64,000 bases of DNA from Sphingobium indicum BiD32. GTDB lineage: Bacteria; Pseudomonadota; Alphaproteobacteria; Sphingomonadales; Sphingomonadaceae. The position numbers and the translations under genes are program-made. The DNA is taken from NCBI RefSeq assembly GCF_000382885.1, contig NZ_CAVK010000055.1, positions 1 to 64,000 of the forward strand, in the 5' to 3' direction. The notes beneath the pieces are model-generated. The model saw only the letters and a list, made by a program, of their open reading frames with translations, made no database searches and had not been told where the DNA came from. Positions 1,916 to 22,909 of this stretch are shown one piece after another. Numbering within the stretch: the first letter of the stretch is position 1; each line of letters begins with the position of its first letter.

Positions 1916-2418
1916 CAGATGATCCCGCCATCAAGCGCGCGGGAGAGGGCTTCGCCGGTAGTCTCAATCTCGATGCGATCGGCGAAAATGGCGCACCATC
2001 CGCCAGAAAATTCTCCGATCCTGGCACGTGAACAACTGCACGCCCATTCAAACCCGATCGGCGCCTCGCGTAACGTCGCCTGACAGCAACGTTGGATCAG
2101 CCCGGCAAGCGCATCAGGCTGAAAATCGGTCGTGCTGGAGAAGATTACGGTACTGACCATCGGCTGGTCGAGCGTGTTGCCGCCCTCAAAATCGACCCCG
2201 AAATTCGGGAAATCGCAATCCGGGAAGATGGCGAGAAAGCCGCTGCATGGATCGTCCGGCGAGGTCGGCGGAAACACCGCCAAAAATTCCGGCGTGAAGT
2301 CGGTCGGGGTTCTTTCATCCTGTAGGTCATAGCTCGCCTGGAAGGCTTCCTCGAGAAGCGCCATTTCCGCATGGCTGCAGGTGAAGGCGAAGCTGCCCTG
2401 GACATAGGAGTCAGCCAT
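1915..2418 (-). CDS. Conserved mobile-element protein of unknown function
   Basis: The start is taken as the ATG at 2418 (MADSYVQGSFAFTCSHAEMA), which overlaps the 3' end of the upstream gene by 8 nt; the longer frame to 2535 lies inside that gene. The 167 residues are acidic and aromatic-rich, with several cysteines (DPCSGF, RCCQ, WACSCSRARIG). The clustered C-terminal cysteines could bind metal, but no known zinc-finger spacing is evident. It is co-transcribed with its neighbours. Function unknown. Confidence 0.68.
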   Translation of the reverse strand: MADSYVQGSFAFTCSHAEMALLEEAFQASYDLQDERTPTDFTPEFLAVFPPTSPDDPCSGFLAIFPDCDFPNFGVDFEGGNTLDQPMVSTVIFSSTTDFQPDALAGLIQRCCQATLREAPIGFEWACSCSRARIGEFSGGWCAIFADRIEIETTGEALSRALDGGII

Positions 2419-2896
2419 GACACAGCTCGCATGTCCGGACCGAGGACGCTTCGTCCTCGGCAATCGCGAACGGCGGCGGTGTGAACTCGGCGGAAACGAA
2501 CCAGCGATCCACCGCTTCGGCCGAGCCAAGGGCACGGTATCCGCACCGTGTCAGAACTACCTCATCCTGTTCGGTCAGATCGAATTGAGCCGTGGGGCAC
2601 TGACCCGTGAAGACCACCCGCTCGGGCCCGAAGGCTCCCGCGCAGCTGCCGGATGACCGCACGAACGGCAGCGCGTGCTGTTCGCAAAAGCTTTCGGTCT
2701 CCTGGAAAATTCCGCCAGGCAGTTCATAGGCGAAAGCCTCGAGGGTCTTGCCATCACTGACGCAGGTATCGTCCAGAGCCTCGCCTTCCCAGTCGGCACG
2801 GCCACCATCCAGTTCGATGGCGGCGATGAGGCCCGGAATGCAGGATCGCGGGATAGGCCCGCCGATGACGATGGACGCGGTTGCACGATCAGCCAT
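2411..2896 (-). CDS. Conserved mobile-element protein of unknown function
   Basis: The start is the ATG at 2896 (MADRATASIVIGGPIPRSCI), preceded by an AAGGAG ribosome-binding site. The upstream in-frame extension to 2980 is unsupported. The 161-residue product has several cysteines and an acidic C-terminal third and resembles its downstream neighbour in composition. No family is recognised. It is the first gene of the overlapping cluster 2896-1162, and a purine-rich tract (2954-2970) sits 58 nt upstream of it. That suggests the promoter lies between 2897 and 3110. Confidence 0.68.
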   Translation of the reverse strand: MADRATASIVIGGPIPRSCIPGLIAAIELDGGRADWEGEALDDTCVSDGKTLEAFAYELPGGIFQETESFCEQHALPFVRSSGSCAGAFGPERVVFTGQCPTAQFDLTEQDEVVLTRCGYRALGSAEAVDRWFVSAEFTPPPFAIAEDEASSVRTCELCHG

Positions 2897-2953
2897 ATTC
2901 AATCTCCTTGTGAAATGGGTAAGCGCGGCACCTCGCCGCCGCTCCAGCCCCGA

Positions 2954-2970
2954 ACCCCTCCCTCCCCTCC
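2954..2970 (-). promoter_or_regulatory. Purine-rich tract upstream of the 2411-2896 gene
   Basis: The coding strand reads GGAGGGGAGGGAGGGGT, 58 nt before the start at 2896. It has four runs of two to four G and could form a G-quadruplex. It resembles the tracts at 326, 3451, 8412 and 10619, each placed 38-70 nt before a start codon. The remaining intergenic sequence (2897-3110) shows no recognised feature. Confidence 0.42.
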
Positions 2971-3110
2971 ATCTGCACAAATTTTAGGCAGCCTTCCCGG
3001 CTGCGCACGAGCTCACGCCGAGGACAGCCGGGATATGGGTCAGGAATTGTCCGTCATTTTGGTGCGGTGTACGTTGATGCCGAAACGCGGTGACGGTTTG
3101 CGCTTGGCGA

Positions 3111-3413
3111 TCAGCCTTCGGCGGCAGCGACGCCGATCAGGTGACGCAGTTTGGACCAGGCCAGTTCCTCGCCCGCGCGCAGTCCCCTGTTGAGACCCTG
3201 GCCATAGAGTCGGTAGGCGGCAGCGGTCACTTCAGGCGTGGCACTGGCCGGGAACAGCGTAACCAACTGACCTTCGTCATCGAGCATTTCGAACACATCT
3301 GCCCCCGATGAGAGTTTGGTGATCGCGATGCGGGCCGGGCTTCCCAGCTGTTCAAGGTCCGCGTTGAAGCTCTCGACAAAGAGCGGATCGAGGATGGGGT
3401 CATCTTGCGCCAT
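3111..3413 (-). CDS. Conserved small mobile-element protein
   Basis: The start is the ATG at 3413 (MAQDDPILDPLFVESFNADL), with a good CGGAGAA ribosome-binding sequence. The 100-residue product appears soluble and alpha/beta, with no signal sequence. A LVTLFPASATPEVTAAAYRL segment in the middle is followed by a basic C-terminal helix. It matches no family I can name. It lies between the strawberry-notch gene region and the 2896 operon, in the same direction. Confidence 0.66.
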   Translation of the reverse strand: MAQDDPILDPLFVESFNADLEQLGSPARIAITKLSSGADVFEMLDDEGQLVTLFPASATPEVTAAAYRLYGQGLNRGLRAGEELAWSKLRHLIGVAAAEG

Positions 3414-3450
3414 GGGATTCTCCGAAAGACGCCGCCGAACCATCCGGCAG

Positions 3451-3477
3451 CACCCCTCACCTTCCCACTCCCCTTCC
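3451..3477 (-). promoter_or_regulatory. Purine-rich tract upstream of the 3111-3413 gene
   Basis: The coding strand is an almost pure A/G tract with runs GGAAGGGGA, GGGAAGG and GAGGGG. It begins 38 nt before the start at 3413. It is a more diverged member of the set of tracts found before backbone genes. Confidence 0.38.
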
Positions 3478-3524
3478 GATGTCAGGATGGTGGACCGGCT
3501 CGCAACGAGAGAAAATGGCGGCGG

Positions 3525-3920
3525 TCAGATTTCTGCGGGGAGCGCGAAAGCTTTGCCAATCATGATCCGTGTCGATAGCAGCGCGGTGTCGAACGCATGG
3601 CCCATAATGCCAATGCTCCTGAACCAGTCCCGGCTCTGCTTTGTACCGTTGAGCAGATCTAGCAGCAGATCCTCGTCCTGTGACATGGTTCCATCGCAGC
3701 CCACACACACCGGGCGGCGCAGCGCCATCTCGTAGAAATGCATCAGGCTGTCGATGACTGGTGCCAGCATGCCGCAGCCTTCCTGCGCGAGCGATACGAA
3801 CAGATGGGGCTGGACGGAGAGCCCCGTATCGCGCGCCTCGCGCCAGCGGCGAATAGAAACCAGAATGATCGACAGGATGGAAATCGACCCGCCCTCAAGG
3901 GCCCCAGATTGAAATGTCAT
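3525..3920 (-). CDS. Conserved mobile-element protein of unknown function
   Basis: The start is the ATG at 3920 (MTFQSGALEGGSISILSIIL), preceded by a GGAG ribosome-binding sequence 9 nt away; longer in-frame starts overlap the strawberry-notch gene. The 131-residue product has a hydrophobic N-terminal stretch, then RRPVCVGCDGTMSQDEDLLL, whose CxxC pair could bind metal. It has no recognised family. A near-perfect palindrome at 3950-3966 lies just upstream and may regulate it, so this gene is a candidate for separate control within the module. Confidence 0.65.
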   Translation of the reverse strand: MTFQSGALEGGSISILSIILVSIRRWREARDTGLSVQPHLFVSLAQEGCGMLAPVIDSLMHFYEMALRRPVCVGCDGTMSQDEDLLLDLLNGTKQSRDWFRSIGIMGHAFDTALLSTRIMIGKAFALPAEI

Positions 3921-11588: not shown

Positions 11589-11752
11589 AAACGGACGCCA
11601 CACAGATGCGGGAAGCAGCGCGCTGGCACGACCGTTTTCGTGCGGCGCCATCTCCATTGTCAGAATAGCGGTTCGCGCTCTTCGAAGCGGTACCAACAAA
11701 ACGGCAATGGCTCTCCAGCCTCGCCTCAAGATTGCCTATTCAAACCCGCTTC

Positions 11753-13714
11753 TCAAGCTGAGAGCCATTCATAGGGAACCAGTGCGTGGTCACGCCAGTG
11801 TTCTGCCAAAACAACACCGGCAAGATCGCCCCAGACATCCTCATCGGCATGATCCAGGACGACGATCTGCAATCGGCCGTTGGCCGCAGCCGCCTGTTCG
11901 CCGAGCAATTGGAATACCTTGCGGACCGCGACAACGTCCTCGTCTCGCCATGCGACTGGATCGGTGGCCTCATCGCCAGCAGCACGACGAGGGAAATATA
12001 CCTGGCTCGGCTGATCATAGATCAGTAGGCCGGGAACGGGATGATGAGGCAATTCCAGGAAGAAGGTCTGCAGCGCAAGCGTTAGCGCGACATGATAGGC
12101 CAGCCAGTTTGCGCCGCTACCGATCTCCCAGAGATAGTCATCGCGCGTTCCCCTGATGACCTTGACCGTCAAGTCTGCGACCATCAGGCGCACCGGTGCA
12201 TCTGGCCATTCCGCGTCCAGTCGGGGAATCAACCGGCCAGTCGTTGCCTCGATACCGTCCAGGGCGTTACGCATCTTGCGCTCAATTTCGTTCTCAGACA
12301 CTCGGCGCCGAAGCTCTCCCATCTGCGACTTGATTGCATCGATCTCCTGGCGAAGCCCCGCCGACTGGTCGGTGCGATCATAGAGCAGGAGGGCCTGTTC
12401 AAGACGGCCAAGGAAGCGCTCCATCCGATCGAAACGGTCAATGGTCTGTTTCGCCTGCTGCGAATTGCGCTCCAGCATGCCGATTTCCCGGCGAATCTCG
12501 TTCAGACGGGCAAGCAGCACTTCCGCATCACCCCGCAGGCGCAGGATTTCCTTGTCGAGCGTGTCGGACACGCTGGGATGTGTGCGCAGCCGGACCTCAA
12601 TTGCCGCAAGCGCATCGCTTAGCTGCTCAACTTTTTCACGGCCGCCGTCGCCCAGGATCGCCACGGCGTCATCCCGCCTGTCATCGGGCATAAGTTCCTT
12701 GAGCCAGTCTGACAGGGCCAGGCGGTCGCGCTGGATGCGCAGCGCGCTGCCATAGGCATCGCTGCTCTCGATAAGCCGCCGCAGTTCACTCAATCGTTGC
12801 CGGTGTTGGGTAAGATTGACCGCGACAGCGCTTTCCTCGGTGCGCAATTCCTGAAGCCGGCCGAGAGCAGCGTCGATCCCTGCGATATTGGGATGAGCCG
12901 CTTCGCTGTTCGCTTCGACGACGCCGCGCAGCATGTCGACTATGTCAGGCCAGTCGCTTGGAATCGCTTGATCGGATGGCAGCAGGCCGAACTCGATCGC
13001 TTGCCTCAGCCAGGACTGCGCTTCCATCCGCCAAGCATTTCCGGCAGCCATTAGCGCCCGAAGTTCGCTTTCGCGTCGCCGCAGGAGTCGGCCCAAACGA
13101 TCGAGTTCATAGCGTGCCTGCAGAACCTCGGCGGTGACAGCCTGCAGAATATAGGGGAAGATGGTCTTCAGCTTCTCGCGATGCTCGGTCGTGTCGGCCT
13201 TGAAGAACATGACGTCGGGGTTGGCGACGATATTCTGGGGTTGAAAGGTGAAGGCCATGAGATCTCGGAAACTCGGCCGAGACTTGAAGCCCCCTTCTGC
13301 TTCAGGTTCGAAGTCGAGATTGGTGAGGCCCGCAAGCCGGTTCAGCATGGCCTTCACGTTCGAGGCGGACGTCCCCTTGCCATCGATGCGCTGCGGAACC
13401 TCGACCTCATCCCCCTCAATGAGCACCATGTCCCCTGTAGTCTGCTGATCACCAGGTTCACGTCGGGCGAGCAGTTTCTGCCCTTCGACCGTATCGATCA
13501 CGACGCCGAACCAGCTGCAATTCTCTCGAATGACGCCGACCGGAATCGCGCACTTGTCCGAGGCAAGGCAATAGTCGATGATCGGGATGACCGCTGATTT
13601 ACCCGTTTTCGACGCACCACTGATGACGTTGACCACGCCGGGATGGAAATCGACGATGCGTGGTTGGCCGTCGTGACGGGGCCAAAGGATCAATTTACGC
13701 AGCTGGAAATACAT
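11753..13714 (-). CDS. ABC-3C system ATPase (DUF3732)
   Basis: The start is the ATG at 13714, overlapping the middle-component stop by one base (TGATG). The 653-residue protein has a Walker A GASKTGKS at residues 33-40 and a long coiled-coil centre (about 200-480) as in SMC/Rad50-type ABC ATPases. The DUF3732-type Walker B region is LLIYDQPSQVYFP near 562-574, where the usual DE is replaced by DQ, a feature of this family. It is the ATPase of an ABC-three-component conflict system, thought to sense invading DNA and license the effector. It is the last gene of a compact operon 15389 to 11753. Confidence 0.86.
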   Translation of the reverse strand: MYFQLRKLILWPRHDGQPRIVDFHPGVVNVISGASKTGKSAVIPIIDYCLASDKCAIPVGVIRENCSWFGVVIDTVEGQKLLARREPGDQQTTGDMVLIEGDEVEVPQRIDGKGTSASNVKAMLNRLAGLTNLDFEPEAEGGFKSRPSFRDLMAFTFQPQNIVANPDVMFFKADTTEHREKLKTIFPYILQAVTAEVLQARYELDRLGRLLRRRESELRALMAAGNAWRMEAQSWLRQAIEFGLLPSDQAIPSDWPDIVDMLRGVVEANSEAAHPNIAGIDAALGRLQELRTEESAVAVNLTQHRQRLSELRRLIESSDAYGSALRIQRDRLALSDWLKELMPDDRRDDAVAILGDGGREKVEQLSDALAAIEVRLRTHPSVSDTLDKEILRLRGDAEVLLARLNEIRREIGMLERNSQQAKQTIDRFDRMERFLGRLEQALLLYDRTDQSAGLRQEIDAIKSQMGELRRRVSENEIERKMRNALDGIEATTGRLIPRLDAEWPDAPVRLMVADLTVKVIRGTRDDYLWEIGSGANWLAYHVALTLALQTFFLELPHHPVPGLLIYDQPSQVYFPRRAAGDEATDPVAWRDEDVVAVRKVFQLLGEQAAAANGRLQIVVLDHADEDVWGDLAGVVLAEHWRDHALVPYEWLSA

Positions 13715-14223
13715 CAGAAATCGATCCTTAAGGTCGAAGCGATTTGCGGAATGCCAAGCTTGGAAAACCAATAGCCCAACTTATCGGCAGCGCCGGCAAA
13801 CCCCTTCAGTCGCTCTGGGATAACGGGCTTCCTGACGCCGATCAGATCGAGCGGATAGCCGTGCAGCGCAGCATTCTCATAGTCGATCTTGATCAGTCGC
13901 GACGTCGCCGCCATGCCAACTGATTGCAGGCTTAGCGGTCGTAGTTGGAGCGCACGGCCGTGCAGTTCCATCAGCACTTCGCGCTCTTTATCGAACTTGG
14001 CCGCAAACAACCACAAACCTGATGACTTGCGGGTCGAGACTACCGCATCGAATGTCGGACGATGGAGCAGCATCGGCAGAATGAGGAAGGCTAGCGGGAG
14101 CGGCACGGCTTCGGCACCGTCTTCCTGATAGCCGAGAGTGAAATGCCAGATCAAAAAGGCGCCGATCGCGGGATTCTGGACGATATCGAGTTCGCTGAGG
14201 TCGACTGCCGAGGTGATCGTCAC
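13714..14223 (-). CDS. ABC-3C system middle component
   Basis: This 169-residue soluble protein begins MTITSAVDLSELDIVQNPAI and contains the NPAIGAFLIWHFTLGY segment, which I recognise from 'three-component ABC system middle component' proteins. It starts with an ATGA overlap on the effector stop (14220-14223) and its stop overlaps the ATPase start, so the three genes are translationally coupled. Family knowledge gives the middle component as the adaptor between the ABC ATPase and the variable effector. No enzymatic motif is seen, as expected. Confidence 0.82.
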   Translation of the reverse strand: MTITSAVDLSELDIVQNPAIGAFLIWHFTLGYQEDGAEAVPLPLAFLILPMLLHRPTFDAVVSTRKSSGLWLFAAKFDKEREVLMELHGRALQLRPLSLQSVGMAATSRLIKIDYENAALHGYPLDLIGVRKPVIPERLKGFAGAADKLGYWFSKLGIPQIASTLRIDF

Positions 14224-15389
14224 CCTGCATCACCATCAAGCAGAGTCTCATAGTCCGTATGCCAGCCGATGCGTCGACGATCGGCGAGATCGTTAAAACT
14301 GCCATGGACGAAATGCCCCGGCACCACCCGTCCATCCAGCGGGGCCTGGTGTTGCGCACATTGACGATAAACGAGACGCCCCTGAACCTCCGCAGCCTTG
14401 TGCCCATGCAGATCCGCGACATCGCCGCGGGCCATGCCGTGCCGGCGCACAAGGTCATCGTCCCAACCATCCAGGCTTCCTGAAAATACCAGGCCGCGCT
14501 CCGCCCATTCGGCCTTGTCGGCCGAGGTGCGCAGGAAATCGCTGACCGCTCGCAGACGATCCTCGTCGCTCGCCTGGACCAGTTCGAGTTGCCTGATGAA
14601 GATAGGGCGTGTTGAGGCGATGTCCGCCACGAGCGCATCGCTGGGTGCCTCAGCCAGCGATGTCAGCAGGCCGGGCAGGTTGTTCTGCCGGATAAATGCC
14701 TGGAAATCCTTTCGGAACGCGTCGGCATCAAGCATCTGCACTTCGCCGCGCTGGATGAGGCGGTCGAGCGCCTGCTTGGCCTGCCCAATTCCAGACTTGA
14801 CCAATATGTCGACATGGTTCTCGGCAATGGTGGGCAGGAGTACCGCACGGATGGCATCGAGTGGGTCCGAGGCGTTAGTCTCCAGCTCGAAATGTCCGAC
14901 TATGGCGGCTTGCTGTCCCTTTGATGCGTCTAGAAACGGCTGGAGGTGAGCGGCGCAGGCGGGAGGGGTCTTCTGCTTTGCGAGTCTCGCCCGGATCATC
15001 GTCAGAACGGCTTCGACGTCATCAGCGTTCGCGGCACCTGCCAGCGCCTCGGCGAACGCCCCCTTCTTTGCAGGTGTGACGTACAGGCGAAAACGCGTAG
15101 CCTCGGCCTTGCATTCCTTCGCCTCAAGCATCGTCAGCCAGTTGTGGAAGGCCTTCCACAGATCGATTGCCCAGTCCGAAATGGGATTCTGCTTCAGCGC
15201 ACTTTTGGTCTGTTCGAGACAAAGGCTGCCATCGGCATAATGGATGGCGACGTCGTCCTGTAATTCGAGCGATACCTTGGCCCCTTTAGGGCAAGTAAGA
15301 AGATGATAGAAGACCCGGACTGGCTGAAGAGCAAAACCGAGATATTGTCCGGGTGCACTGTGCTTCGCAGGTTTAATTTCGGCATTCAT
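14220..15389 (-). CDS. ABC-3C system effector, putative REase-fold nuclease
   Basis: This 389-residue protein opens with GQYLGFALQPVRVFYHLL and LELQDDVAIHYADGSLCLEQ followed by TK. E42, D45/D46 and Q60-x-K62 are compatible with a PD-(D/E)xK restriction-endonuclease-like core of the kind seen in DUF4297/Mrr-like conflict nucleases. The C-terminal half corresponds to the ABC-3C C-terminal domain that should dock on the middle component. It is the first gene of the operon, with a GAGGGGG ribosome-binding sequence. DNA cleavage is predicted from motif order only; the fold assignment is less certain than the system assignment. Confidence 0.75.
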   Translation of the reverse strand: MNAEIKPAKHSAPGQYLGFALQPVRVFYHLLTCPKGAKVSLELQDDVAIHYADGSLCLEQTKSALKQNPISDWAIDLWKAFHNWLTMLEAKECKAEATRFRLYVTPAKKGAFAEALAGAANADDVEAVLTMIRARLAKQKTPPACAAHLQPFLDASKGQQAAIVGHFELETNASDPLDAIRAVLLPTIAENHVDILVKSGIGQAKQALDRLIQRGEVQMLDADAFRKDFQAFIRQNNLPGLLTSLAEAPSDALVADIASTRPIFIRQLELVQASDEDRLRAVSDFLRTSADKAEWAERGLVFSGSLDGWDDDLVRRHGMARGDVADLHGHKAAEVQGRLVYRQCAQHQAPLDGRVVPGHFVHGSFNDLADRRRIGWHTDYETLLDGDAG

Positions 15390-15633
15390 ACATGCGCCCC
15401 CTCTGATGAATGCTGAGCGACCAGCCTTTCTCGGTCAAGAGACAACATAAGCCCTGGTCATGGCAACCTTTTGTGGTGCGACCGATCACAGCGGGAAGCG
15501 CTGATCGCGTCAGGCGTTGCTTGCCATCTTCGGTAGAACCGCCCAAACTATCTGGCTCACATATCAAAAGGCGGTAGTCGGCCTCGGAATATACTCCAGC
15601 GGCACCCATCAGGTAGCCCATGGCGGTGTCACC

Positions 15634-15700
15634 TCTTATTTAAGAGCGCTTACCTTAGCTCATTTGCTATTTAAGCCAAGAGGGCATTGCTTAAATAAGA
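15634..15700. promoter_or_regulatory. Triple TATTTAAG motif, candidate operator for fic operon
   Basis: TCTTATTTAAG (15634-15644) and CTTAAATAAGA (15690-15700) are perfect 11-bp inverted repeats, and a third copy CTATTTAAG lies between them (15667-15675). They end 22 nt before the Fic start in an otherwise GC-rich gap. The Fic protein has a C-terminal winged-helix segment and could bind here itself. The rest of the 332-base gap (15390-15721) shows no other recognised element, though it must hold promoters for both divergent operons. Confidence 0.55.
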
Positions 15701-15721
15701 CCGTACCGTCATATTGGACTC

Positions 15722-16903
15722 ATGTCTGAACCTGCCCCCAATCTCCGGCTAGGCCACTATGTCGAAACCCTTGTTGCGGGAGAGATGGTGCGCGCGTTCG
15801 TGCCGCCGCCCTTGCCACCGGAACCGCCGATTGACGTGCTTGCTCTGCTGGAGCGGTTGAGCCTGGCGGAACGAGCATTGGGGCGTCTGGACGGCATCAC
15901 CATGCTGCTGCCGCGCCAGGAACTGTTCCTCTACATGTATGTGCGGAAGGAAGCCGTCCTCTCATCCCAGATCGAGGGCACGCAATCGACGCTTTCGGAT
16001 CTGCTCCGTTTCGAGACCGAGGCGCAAGCTGGCCAACCGGTCGACGATATTCGCGAAGTTTCGAACTACGTCGATGCCATGATGTATGGCCTGGAGCGGC
16101 TGGAAGACTTGCCCCTGTCATTGCGTCTAATCCGGGAGATGCACGCGCGACTGCTGCAAAGCGGGCGTGGCGGCACGAAGAGCCCCGGCGAATTCCGGCG
16201 TTCGCAGAATTGGATCGGCGGCACACGTCCCGGAAATGCGCTCTTCGTACCGCCGCCACCGACCGAGATGGATGGCTGTCTCGATGCGCTTGAACGCTTC
16301 ATGCACGAGGAAGGGTCACGGCTACCCGCACTGATCAAGGCCGGCCTGCTGCACGTTCAGTTCGAGACCATCCATCCGTTCCTGGACGGCAATGGCAGGA
16401 TCGGCCGGTTGCTGGTCACGCTTTATCTCTGCGTCAACGGGGTGCTGCGCAAGCCGTTGCTCTATCTGAGCCTTTATCTCAAAACCCACCGCGCTGACTA
16501 TTACCGCCTGCTTCAGGAGGTGCGCGAGCATGGCGCGTGGGAAGCCTGGCTCGACTTCTTCCTCACGGGCGTCGCGGACACCGCCAATCAGGCATTCGAT
16601 GCCGCCACCCGGATCGTCGAACTGTTCAAGGAAGATCGCGAACGCATCACGGCGGAGAGTGACCGGGCTGGTTCAGTGCTTCGTATACACGATCACTTTC
16701 AACAGAACCCGTTCCTGACGGCCAATCAGCTCGTCCTGCACACGGGCCTCTCCGCCCCCACGGTCAATGCAGCGCTCGCCGATCTGGAACAGTTCGGTAT
16801 CGTCGAGGAAATCACTGGCCGCAAAAGAGGCCGCGTTTTCAGTTACCGGCGGTATCTCGCAATCCTGAGTGAGGGCACCGACCCGCTCCCCGCTGCGACC
16901 TGA
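15722..16903 (+). CDS. Fic-family AMP-transferase with winged-helix tail
   Basis: This 393-residue protein carries the complete Fic motif HPFLDGNGRIGR near residue 221, with catalytic His and phosphate-binding GNGR, so AMPylation activity is expected. The N-terminal segment SSQIEGT (near residue 80) fits the S/TxxxE(G/N) inhibitory helix of class II Fic proteins, which keeps the enzyme off until released. The last 70 residues (TANQLVLHTGLSAPTVNAAL) look like a winged helix-turn-helix. It starts an operon with the OLD/UvrD pair (13-nt gap to the next start), downstream of an inverted-repeat cluster. Target and role in defence are unknown. Confidence 0.88.
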   Translation: MSEPAPNLRLGHYVETLVAGEMVRAFVPPPLPPEPPIDVLALLERLSLAERALGRLDGITMLLPRQELFLYMYVRKEAVLSSQIEGTQSTLSDLLRFETEAQAGQPVDDIREVSNYVDAMMYGLERLEDLPLSLRLIREMHARLLQSGRGGTKSPGEFRRSQNWIGGTRPGNALFVPPPPTEMDGCLDALERFMHEEGSRLPALIKAGLLHVQFETIHPFLDGNGRIGRLLVTLYLCVNGVLRKPLLYLSLYLKTHRADYYRLLQEVREHGAWEAWLDFFLTGVADTANQAFDAATRIVELFKEDRERITAESDRAGSVLRIHDHFQQNPFLTANQLVLHTGLSAPTVNAALADLEQFGIVEEITGRKRGRVFSYRRYLAILSEGTDPLPAAT

Positions 16904-16916
16904 CGGAAGGAAGCCT

Positions 16917-18899
16917 GTGCGTATCGAATCTGTAACCCTGTCGGGCTTCCGTTGTTTCAGCCCCGATCCGATCACAGTGCCGATTTCATCGGAGATCACG
17001 GCCGTTGTCGGCCCGAATGCGGCGGGCAAGACCGCGCTCCTGCACGCACTGTCGAAGCTGTTTGGCGTATCGCGCGCGCAGCGCACCGTTCAGCGTTCAG
17101 ATTTTCACCTTAGCGCAGACAACCATCCGGATGATCGCGAACCCAAGGATTTGTTCATCGACGTGCTGATCGGTTTGCCCGAACTGGCCGATGGCACCGC
17201 GACACCGGAGACGATCGCCCCCTCGTTCCGGCACATGCAGATCGAACGAGAGGGCAAATCGCCAGTCTGCCGTCTGCGCCTCGTGGCGCGATGGGAAGAC
17301 GACGGGACGGTCGAAGGTGAGGTTTCGCAGGAACTCTTTTGGGTCGATACGCTCGATGACGATCCGACCGAAGACAAGTGTCACCCTGTTTCGGCGGCGG
17401 ATCGTGGCCTCATCCAACTCTATTATACGCCTGCCAGCCGGGACGCGGCGGCCCAGATTAGGGCAACGACGGGCGCACTAGCCGCTCGCCTGCTCCGCGC
17501 TATCGAATGGTCGTCCGAGACCGAGGAGGCTGTTCAGAAAGCCACTGAGAATCTGGCCACGGCATTCGAGAGCGAGTCGGCGATTGCCGCGATCGGCAAA
17601 GCCGTGCAGGCGCGCTGGTCAGGCCTTCACGACGATGTTGTCGATACGAAGCCCAGGCTCAGCCTGGTCAGCCGCCGGTTTGAGGATGTCGTCAACAAAA
17701 TCGCCGTCATCTTCGAGCAGGGACCGGACGGTCAGGAACGCGGTCTCGACGCTCTGAGTGATGGGCAGCAATCCCTATTCTATTTCGCGCTGGCCGCAGC
17801 CGTTTTCGATCTGGAGCGCGAGGTTGTCGCCGGCACGGTCGAGGGGTTCCGCGACGATACTCTGCGCATTCCCGCCCTCACGATCTTCGCGGTGGAAGAG
17901 CCGGAAAACCATCTCTCCCCTTATTTCCTGGCGCGCATCATCCGTCAGGTCCGCTCGCTGACCGATGCCGGTGGCGCTCAGGCCATCGTCACCAGTCATT
18001 CGCCCGCGGTTTTGAGCCGCGTCAATCCGCGGGAGGTTCGCTACTGCCGCTGCGATCCGGAGACGCGCATCTCGTCGGTCAAGACGATCAAGATGCCAGC
18101 AGGTGTCGATGAGGCAGCCAAATTCGTTCGCGGTGCCGTACTCGCCTATCCAGAACTCTACTTCGCCCGGTTCGTGCTGCTCGTCGAAGGAGATTCGGAG
18201 CGAATCGTCTTGCCGCCTCTGGCTGAGGCGCTCGACCTCCTGATCGATCCTGCCTTCGTCGCCATCGTGCCACTAGGCGGGCGGCATGTGCAGCACTTCT
18301 GGCGGTTATTGAAGCATCTGGGCATCCCTCACGCGACCCTCCTGGATCTCGATCTGGGTCGCGAAGGTGGCGGCTTTGGCCGAGTGAAGACGGCGATCGA
18401 GAATCTCATCGAATTTGGCGTGCCAAAAGCCAAACTCCTAGAAATTGAAGGTGGCTTGTTGTCCGACGAGAGACTCTCAACAATGCACACATGGCAGGAC
18501 GTGGAAGATCGGAAGATTCTGAAGGGATGGCTCGATCGCCTCAAGTTGCATGGAGTCTACTTCTCCGCGCCTCTCGACCTCGATCTTGCCATGCTTGAAG
18601 CCTTCCCGGAGGCATACGAAGCGATCATTCCCAAGGGCGGCGGACCAAAGATGACCGCTGACAAAGCGGCGGAAGTAGTTCTCGGGACGGCTGGACCAGG
18701 GCTCACGCTCTACACGGGGGCATTCAAGGACTATCCAGACCTACTGCCAGCCTACCGCTATCACTTTCTTACACATAGCAAGCCGGCAACCCATCTCGCG
18801 GCGCTGTCGCACATCAAACCCAAGGCGTTGCGCGAAGATATGCCTTCTGTTCTGGCCGAAGTTCTCAAGCACATCGCCAAGTCATTGCGGCGGGACTAG
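16917..18899 (+). CDS. Gabija-like GajA: OLD-family ATPase/Toprim nuclease
   Basis: The start is taken as GTG at 16917 (MRIESVTLSGFRCFSPDPIT) behind a GGAAGGAAG ribosome-binding sequence; an in-frame ATG at 16869 lies inside fic. The 660 residues contain an ABC-type ATPase with Walker A GPNAAGKT (32-39), Walker B IFAVEEPENHLSP and the switch histidine TSHSPAVLSRV. A Toprim domain follows, with LLVEGDSE near 421 and DLDLGREGGG near 476. This is the OLD architecture of Gabija GajA, which nicks phage DNA when nucleotides fall. It is 2 nt from the helicase gene. It is somewhat longer than the studied GajA (about 580 residues), so Gabija-like is the careful wording. Confidence 0.83.
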   Translation: MRIESVTLSGFRCFSPDPITVPISSEITAVVGPNAAGKTALLHALSKLFGVSRAQRTVQRSDFHLSADNHPDDREPKDLFIDVLIGLPELADGTATPETIAPSFRHMQIEREGKSPVCRLRLVARWEDDGTVEGEVSQELFWVDTLDDDPTEDKCHPVSAADRGLIQLYYTPASRDAAAQIRATTGALAARLLRAIEWSSETEEAVQKATENLATAFESESAIAAIGKAVQARWSGLHDDVVDTKPRLSLVSRRFEDVVNKIAVIFEQGPDGQERGLDALSDGQQSLFYFALAAAVFDLEREVVAGTVEGFRDDTLRIPALTIFAVEEPENHLSPYFLARIIRQVRSLTDAGGAQAIVTSHSPAVLSRVNPREVRYCRCDPETRISSVKTIKMPAGVDEAAKFVRGAVLAYPELYFARFVLLVEGDSERIVLPPLAEALDLLIDPAFVAIVPLGGRHVQHFWRLLKHLGIPHATLLDLDLGREGGGFGRVKTAIENLIEFGVPKAKLLEIEGGLLSDERLSTMHTWQDVEDRKILKGWLDRLKLHGVYFSAPLDLDLAMLEAFPEAYEAIIPKGGGPKMTADKAAEVVLGTAGPGLTLYTGAFKDYPDLLPAYRYHFLTHSKPATHLAALSHIKPKALREDMPSVLAEVLKHIAKSLRRD

Positions 18900-18901
18900 C
18901 C

Positions 18902-20806
18902 ATGGCGGTGCTGTCGCGACGGGTTCGCCCGGATGATTGGAAGCCGGTCGGCGTGGACGCGCTCGAAGCGAATGCGTTGAAGGTTGTCCGGTCGGCAGAC
19001 AATCGATCCGTCATCGCCGGCCCCGGTGCAGGCAAGACGGAATTGCTCGCGCAACGCGCCGCCTATCTCCTCCAGACGGGCACCGCACCTCCGCCAGGGC
19101 GTATTCTGGCCATCAGCTTCAAGCGCGATGCCGCAACGAACCTCGCCGCGCGGGTCCGTCAACGATGCCACCGCATTCATGCCGGGCGCTTCGACTCCAT
19201 GACGTTCGACGCCTTTGCGAAGGGGCTGATCGACCGCTTTGGTCAGGCATTACCCGAACTCTGGCGACCCACGCCCGACTATGAAATCATGTTCCCCAAT
19301 GATCGAGATTATCGGGATTTCCTTCAGCAGCAACTCGGTGCCCCTCCGACATCGGTCGGCATCTACGCCGACATTCAAGCGATAACAGTGAAAGCGTTCG
19401 AACGCCGTCATCTGGTGGGATTGCCGCTCCCGTTGGAAGGCTGGCCAAATCCGACGCCGTGTCAATGGGCAGCCGATCGCTACTGGCAAACGTCGCTTCG
19501 CAGTGGCAAGACGAGCGGCCTGTCGTTTCCCATGATCGGGCGCCTTGTCGAACTACTGTTGCGGGTTAATCCGATGGCGCGCGACGCGCTGCGACTGACC
19601 TACTCGCACCTGTTCATGGACGAGTTTCAGGATACGACTCAAATCCAATACGATCTGGTTCGCACAATCTTCCTCGGCACCGACACTGTGATCACCGCCG
19701 TGGGGGACAACAAGCAGCAGATCATGCGCTGGGCCATGGCGATGGATGATCCGTTCACGGCTTTTGACGCCGACTTCGCCGCGAAGCGAACACCTCTCTA
19801 CAACAATTATCGTTCGTCGCCCGAGCTGGTGCGTATCCAGCATGTTCTGGCCCAAGCCTTAGACGCGCGCGCCGTGGCACCGGTATCGAAAACGGTGGGC
19901 ACGATCGCAGGGGACAGTTGCGCAATCTGGGATTTCTCGACGCCGGAGGTCGAGGCGGACCGCCTGGCGGCATTCGTTGCCGCCGAGATGAAGACCCAAA
20001 AGCTCGGCCCACGCGATTTCGTTCTGCTTGTCCGCCAGAAGGCCGTCGACTACGCGGCTGTCCTCGAACCGGCCTTCGCGGCCGCCGGTATTCCCCTGCG
20101 CAACGAGGCCGGGACCGTCGGCACGGTCATGCTGCAAGAACTGCTGGCGGAAGAAGCATCGGAACTGGTCGTCGCCATTCTGCACCTCGCGATGACCAAG
20201 CGGGCCGGCCGATATTGGACGGACTGTCAGGAGGCGCTAGCTGCACTCCGTGGCGTCGCGCCCGATGAAGAGGCCGCGCAGACCAAACTTGCCCGCGAAC
20301 TGGACGCATACGTGATCAAGCTCAGCGCCGCACATCCCAATCCACCAAAAACAAAGGCAATAGCGCAATCCATCGTGGACGACATTCTGGCCTTCATCGG
20401 CCGGGAACGGCTGATCGCCGTTCATCCCGCCTACGGCCAGGGCAGCTGGCTCGAAAAGGTTCTTGATGCGGTCGCGGTGCATCTGCTGGTGTCGTCGGCT
20501 GACGGCATCGATTGGTCATCGGCTCTTGACGCCTATGAAGGCATCCATGCGATCCCGCTGATGACAATCCATAAAAGCAAAGGACTCGAATACCACAGCG
20601 TTATATTCGTCGGCTTGGACGATGGCGCATGGTGGAGTTTCTCCAACGATCAGGTCGAGGCTACTGCGGGTTTCTTTGTTGCATTCACTCGCGCCAAACA
20701 GCGTGTCGTTTTCACCTATTGCGCTCGTCGTGGCTCACGAACCAAGATCGCGACACTGTATGAGCTTCTGAGTAAGGCAGGGGTGCAGAGTGTGCGCGTT
20801 GCTTAA
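18902..20806 (+). CDS. Gabija-like GajB: UvrD/Rep helicase
   Basis: This 634-residue superfamily IA helicase has motif I AGPGAGKTE near residue 39, motif Ia ISFKRDAATNLAARV, motif II LFMDEFQDTT near 237, motif III VGDNKQQIMRW, motif IV NNYRSSPELV, motif V MTIHKSKGLEYHSVIFVGLD near 555 and motif VI VAFTRAKQRVVFTYC. All nucleotide-binding elements are present, so it should be active. Its 2-nt spacing from the OLD nuclease gene is the diagnostic gajA-gajB order. In known Gabija complexes GajB binds the GajA tetramer and augments defence. Generic DNA repair is the alternative, but the pairing argues against it. Confidence 0.84.
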   Translation: MAVLSRRVRPDDWKPVGVDALEANALKVVRSADNRSVIAGPGAGKTELLAQRAAYLLQTGTAPPPGRILAISFKRDAATNLAARVRQRCHRIHAGRFDSMTFDAFAKGLIDRFGQALPELWRPTPDYEIMFPNDRDYRDFLQQQLGAPPTSVGIYADIQAITVKAFERRHLVGLPLPLEGWPNPTPCQWAADRYWQTSLRSGKTSGLSFPMIGRLVELLLRVNPMARDALRLTYSHLFMDEFQDTTQIQYDLVRTIFLGTDTVITAVGDNKQQIMRWAMAMDDPFTAFDADFAAKRTPLYNNYRSSPELVRIQHVLAQALDARAVAPVSKTVGTIAGDSCAIWDFSTPEVEADRLAAFVAAEMKTQKLGPRDFVLLVRQKAVDYAAVLEPAFAAAGIPLRNEAGTVGTVMLQELLAEEASELVVAILHLAMTKRAGRYWTDCQEALAALRGVAPDEEAAQTKLARELDAYVIKLSAAHPNPPKTKAIAQSIVDDILAFIGRERLIAVHPAYGQGSWLEKVLDAVAVHLLVSSADGIDWSSALDAYEGIHAIPLMTIHKSKGLEYHSVIFVGLDDGAWWSFSNDQVEATAGFFVAFTRAKQRVVFTYCARRGSRTKIATLYELLSKAGVQSVRVA

Positions 20807-20839
20807 TTTAGGTGATGCAGGGCATCGAGGAGAATATAT

Positions 20840-21287
20840 GTGACCATTACCTTCGAGGTTCATGGAGAAGACGGCCTCTTCTCCTATCCCGATGGCCACG
20901 ATGACATCCAGCAGCAGTTCGACAATCTGCTGGATGAACGCGATGCCGGGAATCTCAGCCGAACCAATTACGTCGGCAGGCTCAAGGAACTTGTTGCTGC
21001 CGATCCGACCTTCATCGACGGGCAAGACGCCCGACGCCATCGCCTTTCTTCGCTGGCTTCATACCCATCCCAAGGTGATGGCTGAACGGGCAGCCTACCT
21101 CGAAGGCCGCGAAGCGTTGTTGTGGAACCATGACGTCGAAGAGCGTCGCGCCATCCTGGTGCAGGAAGATGCCATCGTTCATGATATCGACGATCGGCTA
21201 TCGGACGTGATCGTGCAGTCCCGCACCGACCGTGGCGGTTCGTCCGTGGTTCCCTGGAATTATACAAAGAAACGCGATCGTTTCTGA
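20840..21287 (+). pseudogene. Frameshifted conserved hypothetical gene
   Basis: A GTG start at 20840 with a GAGGAG ribosome-binding sequence opens a frame reading MTITFEVHGEDGLFSYPDGH, continuing through NLLDERDAGNLSRTNYVGRL to about position 21020. The frame then becomes unlike coding sequence and stops at 21085. A second frame carries a plausible continuation (GKTPDAIAFLRWLHTHPKVM ... VVPWNYTKKRDRF) to 21287. Either one base has been gained or lost near 21025, or two gene ends have been fused. The N-terminal part looks like a small conserved protein that often precedes TPR-like segments. It follows gajB by 33 nt and may be operon debris. Confidence 0.5.
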
Positions 21288-21367
21288 TTGCCAGAGGACG
21301 GATCTCTGCCTGCCCATAGGAAACACGCCATTCCGACTAACTATGAAGAACTCCGCTTTCCTGATTT

Positions 21368-22657
21368 TTATGAAATCACCCTGGTCGAAAGCAAATCCGC
21401 CCAATCGCAAAGCGCCTTTTTGCGAGCGTCAAGCATCTCGGATTTGTTGTAGACGCGCATGATCTTCGACCGCGTCGCGGTCGCGACGTGGTTCAATATC
21501 CGATCCGCAACATGGGGCGGCACACTCAGAATCTCGCAGGCGTGCGTATTGAAGGTCGTTCGCAGATCATGAACGGTCCAGTGCGGCATGTGCTCAACGG
21601 TTTCCAGATCGATCCCCGCCTGTTCCGCCTCCTTGATCCGGGCACCCCGGACTGCCTTGTCAATCCGGCGCTTGGCTTTCGTGAAACCCGAGACCGATGT
21701 TTCACCAGTGGTCGAAAAGAGTAGCTTCGACTCCTTCGGCCGCTCCTTGTGGTTGAGCGCCTCGATAATGATGGACCGAGCCAATGGCGAAAGCGGGACA
21801 CGCAGGGCCTTCGCGTTCTTCGTTCGGCCAGCGGGAAGTACCCATATTCCCTGATCCGGCGTGTCGTCATCCCCGACAGTCAGATCCGCGATCGGCATGG
21901 CCGATATTTCTTCCCGCCGCATCGGCAGCACTATCAGCAAACGGTATAGCTGCTCGAATGGATATCCAAGGCCAGTGGTTGCAGCCCAAACCTCGCGTAG
22001 TTCTTCAAGGGTGTGAAACCGGTCGCGCTCGTTTTCCTTGGCCGGCTTGCGGATGTTTTTTGCGGGAGAATCGGTGAGGATTTCCTCTTCGACGCACCAG
22101 TTGAAGAAGGCCGACGCATAAGCGAGCTTCCGGTTGGCCGATATCGGTGCCTGCCGGGCATGCTTCTTGACGAGATCGCTGATCTCGGCGCGGGTTATCG
22201 AGGCCGGCTTCCGGTTGGCGAGGGTCGTCATCAGACCCTTTTTGCCGTCAAGTGCACGCCGGGTCTGAGCACCGCGACGGTGCTGCGCGAGAATGAGTTC
22301 CTCATACAGGTCCAGTACGTCCTTGAGGGTTGTTCTGGTCCGTATCTCAAGAGCTGCTTCGCGTGCTGCAACCCGCTTCTCCTCGTTGAGGTCATGGCCC
22401 TGGACGACCTTGGCCCGCGCCTCCTGTGCTGCCGCTCGCGCCTCGGCAATACCCATACCGGGCCAGGATCCGAGCTTGATACGCGTGGGTTGACCATTTT
22501 TCAGCCGCCCCCAATACGACCAGCTTGCGGATCGTTGACCCGCGCGGATGCGCAGGCCCGGCTCGCGATCATCGCGGAGTTCGAGTTGCCCAGAGGCACC
22601 ATTCTTGGCCCTCAGGATCAGGGCCTCAATTCCGTTTTTTGTAAGTGAGGCCGCCAC
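21368..22657 (-). CDS. Tyrosine recombinase (DUF4102-type integrase)
   Basis: The start is placed at GTG 22657 (VAASLTKNGIEALILRAKNG) because an AAGGAG ribosome-binding sequence precedes it; the longer frame to 22747 crosses repeat sequence. The 429 residues have an N-terminal DUF4102-like domain (LELRDDREPGLRIRAG), a core-binding SAM-like domain, and the catalytic elements R in LPMRREEIS, HDLRTTFNT (HxxR), DRILNHVATATRSK and the nucleophile Tyr in MRVYNKSEM. It lies next to the tRNA-Lys fragment at 22865 and points inward, as usual for island integrases. A promoter candidate is at 22775-22802. Confidence 0.9.
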   Translation of the reverse strand: MAASLTKNGIEALILRAKNGASGQLELRDDREPGLRIRAGQRSASWSYWGRLKNGQPTRIKLGSWPGMGIAEARAAAQEARAKVVQGHDLNEEKRVAAREAALEIRTRTTLKDVLDLYEELILAQHRRGAQTRRALDGKKGLMTTLANRKPASITRAEISDLVKKHARQAPISANRKLAYASAFFNWCVEEEILTDSPAKNIRKPAKENERDRFHTLEELREVWAATTGLGYPFEQLYRLLIVLPMRREEISAMPIADLTVGDDDTPDQGIWVLPAGRTKNAKALRVPLSPLARSIIIEALNHKERPKESKLLFSTTGETSVSGFTKAKRRIDKAVRGARIKEAEQAGIDLETVEHMPHWTVHDLRTTFNTHACEILSVPPHVADRILNHVATATRSKIMRVYNKSEMLDARKKALCDWADLLSTRVIS

Positions 22658-22681
22658 TCGAACACTCCTTGACCCAAAAAT

Positions 22682-22701
22682 TAGGTTGCATATAGGTTGC
22701 A
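22682..22701. repeat. Tandem direct repeat beside integrase
   Basis: TAGGTTGCA occurs twice with an 11-bp period (22682-22690 and 22693-22701), between the integrase start and its putative promoter. Helical phasing and position suit an integrase arm-type or excisionase/repressor site. Function inferred. Confidence 0.45.
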
Positions 22702-22774
22702 CCAGAGCCCCGACTGACTGGAGTTTCCGCAAGCCAACGACGGACACCCGAGGACGAGACCCTGTGAAATTTCT

Positions 22775-22864: not shown

Positions 22865-22909
22865 CTCTTAATCAGCGGGTCCTAGGTTCGAGCCCTAGTG
22901 CGTCCACCA
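22865..22909 (+). other. attR: 3' fragment of tRNA-Lys(CTT)
   Basis: These 45 bases correspond to a tRNA from the anticodon loop (CTCTTAA, anticodon CTT) through the T-arm (GGTTCGAGCCC) to the encoded CCA end. The sequence before them is not a tRNA 5' half, so this is not a functional gene. It is the duplicated attachment core left by integration into tRNA-Lys(CTT). The identity beginning at the anticodon loop suggests crossover there. The intact tRNA should lie at the element's left end, outside the window. Confidence 0.75.

Follow-up and report, generated by a model that had tools for sequence, protein, structure and literature searches.

The first 64,000 nucleotides (nt) of contig NZ_CAVK010000055.1 of Sphingobium indicum BiD32, which is the whole stretch of DNA that was analysed and is called here the window, contain a Gabija gene pair directly preceded by a gene for a Fic protein. 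The three genes are open and located on one strand, namely fic (15722–16903, +), gajA (16917–18899, +) and gajB (18902–20806, +). The first encodes a class II Fic of 393 amino acids (aa) from the SoFic family, with the inhibitory motif SSQIEGT at residue 81, the catalytic motif HPFLDGNGRIGR at residue 218 and a C-terminal winged helix. The second, which starts with GTG, encodes an OLD-type ATPase/TOPRIM nuclease, and the third a UvrD-type helicase. The list of open reading frames (ORFs) places the start of gajA at 16869; homologues start at the GTG of 16917, and thus the gap between fic and gajA is 13 nt (16904–16916), while the one between gajA and gajB is 2 nt. An earlier sequence-only reading of this DNA had given the same two gaps, and they are borne out by the coordinates. 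Within the fic-gajA gap, a GGAAGGAAG stretch resembles a ribosome-binding site. From the spacing of the genes, we infer that all three are on a single transcript.

The Pfam domains Fic_N, Fic and, at the C-terminus, HTH_24 were found in the Fic protein, each above cut-off. Its best PADLOC match is SoFic (E 1.4e-126), and the solved Shewanella SoFic chains align to residues 29–385, winged helix included. The complete catalytic motif, the inhibitory helix and the winged helix described by the sequence-only reading are therefore confirmed. In the NCBIfam SoFic equivalog NF046030 the protein scores 174.2 bits, below the threshold of 550, and its sequence places it as a relative within the SoFic family, outside that equivalog. 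GajA shows AAA_21, AAA_15 and OLD-like_TOPRIM above cut-off and GajB shows UvrD domains, with PDLC00090 (E 3.8e-246) and PDLC00103 (E 3.1e-229) as their respective best PADLOC matches. The pair, which had been described as Gabija-like, is Gabija by profile. In comparisons with four relatives, the ratio of nonsynonymous to synonymous substitutions (dN/dS) was 0.04–0.09 for Fic, 0.06–0.10 for GajA and 0.07–0.08 for GajB (the GajB of genome G019 being compared across 498 aa only). Judged by these ratios, all three genes are under purifying selection, as for functional genes.

The region before fic contains a series of conserved elements. In detail, box 1, CTTATTTAAG (15635..15644, +), is followed by the GCTTACCTTAGC element (15648..15659, +) and by box 2, CTATTTAAG (15667..15675, +), a near-copy of box 1 in direct repeat 31 nt on. 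Box 3, CTTAAATAAG (15690..15699, +), is the reverse complement of box 1, and the two form an 11-nt perfect inverted repeat. Box 3 overlaps the TTGCTT hexamer of a possible promoter, TTGCTT-17 nt-CATATT (15687..15715, +), which has conserved positions and ends 6 nt before the ATG. This tentative promoter would possibly yield a leaderless or nearly leaderless mRNA. The core TTA[AT][AT]TAA occurs twice in the window, both times in this control region.

The alignment of 35 Fic loci upstream of the gene showed a common block composed of TTAWTTAAG, 3 bases, gCTTAcCTtagc, about 8 bases, TAWTTAAG, TTGCTTAAATAa and cATaWT, the last hexamer being located a few bases 5′ of the ATG. Among the 33 loci with a Fic of at least 81% identity, the block reached a mean pairwise identity of 0.706 and the −10-like hexamer one of 0.74, whereas the flank and the spacer remained at 0.318 and 0.317, respectively. 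The boxes are repeatedly found near −85, −54 and −30 when loci are compared, but the strict form of all three is not universal.

The recurrence of Fic before gajA was examined in 29 GajA loci of at least 60% identity, that is, the window and G019 together with 20 of the 26 loci from one search and 7 of the 9 plasmid records at or above that identity. This sample is not random and leaves out six streptococcal loci (31–33%) and the plasmid records H6 and H9. Fic lies directly upstream of gajA on the same strand in 10 of the 29, at a distance of 13–23 nt. The ten loci belong to the window, G019, a Sphingobium metagenome-assembled genome (MAG), Methylobacterium, Paracoccus, Caulobacter, Bradyrhizobium, Acetobacter, a Sphingomonas MAG and a Roseomonas plasmid. 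They include some redundancy, with identical Fic proteins in L014, L015 and L027 and near-copies in L024 and L037. The Sphingobium MAG (L009) matches the window at 92.6% across approximately 11726 to 21024. A chance neighbourhood is ruled out by the recurrence and the spacing, and the co-occurrence in other genomes, proposed as a check by the sequence-only reading, is on the same grounds beyond chance.

Fic is absent directly before gajA in the remaining 19 loci, and a fixed three-gene Gabija is thus ruled out. In distant GajA loci (31–47% identity), Fic is directly upstream in none of the 22 with a readable upstream side. In viral contigs, the GajA query gave no relative, and the GajA alignment gave 11 loci, 7 of them readable upstream and none of these 7 with Fic. 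Some Fic-less loci seem to retain traces of the gene. A stretch resembling the Fic C-terminus was read by eye just before gajA in L031 (Rhodobacter ruber), and similarly about 20 nt resembling the Fic-gajA junction in L010 and L035. This is an indication that Fic has been lost from gajAB at least once and, judging from these remnants, probably more often. Fic-positive loci are intermixed with Fic-negative ones in the GajA tree, as in the grouping of L011 with L012 (100/99). The base of this tree is unresolved, with long branches meeting.

The recurrent adjacency in 10 of the 29 loci, together with a conservation of Fic as strong as that of its partners, could be explained if Fic were a working third component of Gabija, which either modifies GajA or GajB by AMPylation or serves as an additional effector that they activate. 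Its absence from 19 close GajA loci speaks against this explanation, and so does the occurrence of this Fic both ahead of Argonaute, Hachiman and NERD-helicase genes and on its own. We consider such a role quite improbable. Of the three roles offered by the sequence-only reading, that of a fixed third component is unsupported, since gajAB and Fic are each commonly found without the other.

Fic copies were also sampled from the side of fic itself. The sample consists of 24 close copies, 81–94% identical to the Fic of the window, of which 8 derive from genomes and 16 from plasmid records; the latter were picked for differing organisms from a larger list, in which 119 records match at E 1e-100. 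Three of the 24 copies lead defence genes, an arrangement that lay beyond the view of the sequence-only reading. In L094, a gap of 12 nt separates Fic from the gene of a SIR2 protein of short-Argonaute type (PADLOC Aga_SIR2, E 1.4e-224), and the next gene encodes a pAgo (PADLOC pAgo_I, E 3.5e-213; no Pfam match). In L047 (plasmid pAA04 of Aminobacter), HamA and HamB of Hachiman come after Fic with a gap of 10 nt. In L095, Fic and the gene of a NERD-domain helicase share 4 nt; the best PADLOC model for this helicase is an reverse transcriptase (RT)-associated NERD helicase. Fic is open in all 33 close copies, and the catalytic and inhibitory motifs are kept.

The strongest evidence for modularity is the comparison of L013 (Fic-gajAB, Paracoccus) with L094 (Fic-SIR2-pAgo), which are 95.7% identical over 2,075 bp. 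The shared stretch begins about 876 bp upstream of Fic, includes a divergent gene, the boxes and Fic, and extends to 17 nt past the Fic stop; the identity ends where the following gene begins. In the Fic tree the two proteins are sisters (98/75, not starred), with a dS of 0.14.

Searches of the families round G713, G749, G492 and G605 gave one more close Fic (G859, 85%) and one at 70%. No Fic match was found in phage records at E 1e-40, and 71 Fic relatives of 39–64% identity were found in viral contigs. In three of these contigs (L116, L117 and L118), a Fic of about 60% is located 11 nt before a 325-aa protein without Pfam or PADLOC match, a candidate defence gene. Relatives of about 60% also precede the gene of an McrB-like AAA protein by 48 nt (L131) and that of a type I methyltransferase by 32 nt (L132). 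Behind the Fic stop of four rhizobial plasmid copies (L042, L043, L046 and L048), sequences like tRNA 3′ ends (TTCGA...TCAAGG) were seen by eye and are perhaps traces of integration. A TIR-domain gene is annotated in L047 (5000–5887, −), divergent from the Fic-Hachiman operon.

The distribution of the control region was followed with a search pattern consisting of box 1 and the GCTTACCTTAGC element. With up to 4 mismatches, the pattern is found between −85 and −90 in 31 of the 33 Fic loci, irrespective of the gene that follows, and is missing from all 43 Fic-less GajA loci (589 kb; two genomes are counted twice, as L007/L209 and L008/L210). It is absent from the expected place before two remoter Fics (67–69% identity). 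In 386 genomes, 6 matches were found with up to 2 mismatches, compared with 3 for the reversed control pattern. Four of the 6 lie 85–86 nt before a Fic of at least 87%, each in a different genome; five of the sampled genomes have such a Fic, and G713 is the one missed. There are no exact matches in viral contigs. The palindromic control region thus accompanies Fic and is not tied to gajAB. At the same stringency of 2 mismatches, the genome of the window contains the pattern a single time, which rules out a wider Fic regulon. In L113, L011, L013, L094 and L038, a divergent gene beginning with xGYTQRVRDSILPLSVAGTLP shares the box region with Fic.

These data are best explained, in our opinion, if Fic and its upstream control region form a portable, self-regulating operon leader, in which Fic is a self-repressing AMPylase toxin and gajAB are under its switch. 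By analogy with characterized proteins, we regard this explanation as rather probable. The winged helix of Fic would bind the boxes, of which box 3 covers part of the possible −35 hexamer, and would thereby repress its own promoter; gajAB, if co-transcribed with fic, would be held under the same switch. Infection or stress may free the operator of Fic, so that Fic and Gabija would rise together. Fic would then AMPylate a host target and add growth arrest to the DNA degradation by GajAB, an addition suggested by the intact motifs and by the precedent of EcSofic. Of the roles named by the sequence-only reading, autoregulator is the one best supported, because the control region goes with Fic and because the analogy with CccR of Yersinia pointed to autorepression.

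According to passages of the respective reports, the helix-turn-helix (HTH) of CccR binds palindromes near the −35 and −10 boxes and autorepresses, and the protein is a toxin requiring its catalytic His (PMC9755527). DNA binding and an altered activity are described for CbFic2 in a paper which also states that DNA binding of SoFic had not been shown (PMC10628234). EcSofic is dimeric and toxic when expressed, its toxicity requires the C-terminal domain, and the gene of its antitoxin AS1 is downstream (PMC12249575).

Several results weigh against the portable leader. No recognised defence gene is located directly behind Fic in 20 of the 24 copies, and hence the switch would mostly serve Fic alone; in three of those 20 (L043, L096 and L187) an ORF of 62–74 aa lies within 10 nt of the Fic stop. 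Each of the Argonaute, Hachiman and NERD pairings is known from a single locus. Two proteins related to the SIR2 protein (87% and 69%) and one related to HamB (71%) have no Fic in the 9–13 kb retrieved around them, which indicates that leader and effector operons join and part. The box pattern was missed in 2 of the 33 Fic loci (L190 and L191), and a sigma-70 consensus scan of 15390–21300 called no promoter.

Passive stacking, the main rival explanation, is also favoured by the 20 copies that have no recognised defence gene directly behind Fic. In that case, an independent single-gene SoFic defence would have been joined to the fronts of operons in islands, and a shared transcript, if there is one, would have no regulatory meaning for gajAB. 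Such an origin is in line with a control region that serves Fic wherever Fic is and with defence systems that join freely in islands, a Lamassu-like operon lying just upstream here. On the contrary, the joints are placed at the Fic stop, from −4 to 23 nt, before four kinds of downstream systems, three of which are whole operons. We regard passive stacking as rather unlikely.

Fic remains open where its neighbours are damaged. The genes gajA and/or gajB do not read through in 3 of the 10 Fic-positive loci (L026, L027 and L038), and in L097, another of the 24 close copies, the first bases of the gajA junction are retained while gajA is gone. These cases bear on a possible guard or addiction module, where GajAB or the intact operon would restrain the toxicity of Fic and Fic would be set free when Gabija is lost, as could happen through a phage inhibitor. 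Such a module would agree with the reported toxicity of expressed EcSofic and with the toxin genes found in the same slot of other Gabija loci (AbiEii in L016 and L021, zeta toxin in L029). An open Fic beside broken or absent partners, the persistence of gajAB after Fic loss (L031) and the inhibitory helix that a class II Fic has of its own all speak against it. We give this module very little credence, and the GajAB-dependent guard proposed by the sequence-only reading is disfavoured on the first two of these grounds.

Other genes also occupy the position directly before gajA. An AbiEii gene ends approximately 22–28 nt before gajA in the two Novosphingobium loci (L016 and L021), and the zeta-toxin gene of Streptococcus cuniculi (L029) overlaps gajA by 4 nt. 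The gene of a WYL protein, a regulator whose place agrees with the portable leader, is found 19 nt upstream in a viral contig (L213), a SacI-type nuclease gene 11 nt upstream in L204, and a type I restriction subunit gene overlaps gajA in L210. These are isolated cases, for which no chance expectation is given. In L206 (G1220), which has no Fic, a pAgo gene (2293–3768; PADLOC pAgo_I, E 5.7e-168) ends 66 nt before gajA.

Returning to the portable leader, the close copies of the Fic unit before unrelated anti-virus genes suggest a portable controller of bacterial immunity. A broader proposal is that an AMPylase toxin serves as an interchangeable control head. It would repress the shared promoter and, once released from it, would modify a host target, so that transcription of Gabija, short Argonaute, Hachiman or NERD helicase would be coupled to abortive infection, and AbiEii, zeta toxin and the WYL protein would fill the same slot in other Gabija lineages. 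This proposal is offered tentatively, and we would sooner doubt it than accept it.

The surroundings of the operon in the window include additional features. A Lamassu-like ABC-3C operon (11753–15389, −; LmuB/DUF3732, MC3/LmuC and LmuA/CTD7) is divergent from Fic. On the other side, a tyrosine integrase gene (21368–22747, −) is located beside a 25-mer like a tRNA 3′ end (22885–22909). A copy of this 25-mer with 1 mismatch was found about 51.6 kb on in the same contig (G000:C208:74480–74504), and two more elsewhere. These 25-mers are possibly the att sites of an island or an integrative element.

Gabija, SoFic, autorepressing Fic proteins and portable immune regulators are each known, and it is their combination that appears to be new. 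In the literature covered, which includes few subscription journals and partial texts, no report was found of a Fic leading a Gabija, Hachiman or Argonaute operon. A link of Fic to the Gabija operon is absent from the relevant passages of PMC8649781, PMC11514479, PMC11706625, PMC12988326, PMC10440598, PMC11680222 and PMC12629846. With a defined control region and a toxin-regulator before four kinds of immune genes, the control of Gabija and the sensing and targets of SoFic become testable by simple reporters. Reading directly behind this Fic and its boxes also provides a search route to new defence genes.

Published Gabija consists of two genes. The locus in the window agrees with it in the profiles and domains of GajA and GajB and in the order of their genes, with a GajA of AAA ATPase and OLD-like TOPRIM and a UvrD-type GajB directly downstream, but here Fic and its control region precede them in the same direction. 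Shewanella SoFic and the Sofic of E. coli H397 have the domain layout of the window's Fic, that is, the class II arrangement of an N-terminal inhibitory motif, HPFxxGNGRxxR and a C-terminal winged helix. The Fic of the window differs in being about 30% identical (by eye, from the solved-chain alignment), below the equivalog cut-off and at the front of an operon. As for the Sofic-AS1 pair, the 13-nt fic-gajA gap has no room for an AS1 gene, and Fic is followed by gajA and not by a small antitoxin gene, small genes elsewhere in the locus not having been searched for.

CccR of Yersinia pseudotuberculosis is likewise a Fic with a C-terminal HTH and a proven toxin and autorepressor. It is a secreted effector of the type VI secretion system (T6SS) and is not reported, in the passages concerned, as the head of a defence operon (PMC9755527). 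BrxR/CapW, with a WYL domain, and CapK-CapS are also DNA-binding regulators upstream of diverse defence operons, and Fic and Gabija are unmentioned in the main texts on them (PMC9122601 and PMC13373217). No WYL domain was detected in Fic by Pfam up to E 0.01. If a portable immune-operon regulator is understood as a way of working and not as a protein family, the Fic unit resembles these regulators, as it stands directly before unrelated systems (Gabija, SIR2/pAgo, Hachiman and NERD helicase) and combines a predicted DNA-binding domain (HTH_24) with conserved operator-like sites at its own promoter. BrxR/CapW and CapK-CapS belong to other families, whereas the leader in the window is itself a predicted AMPylase toxin.

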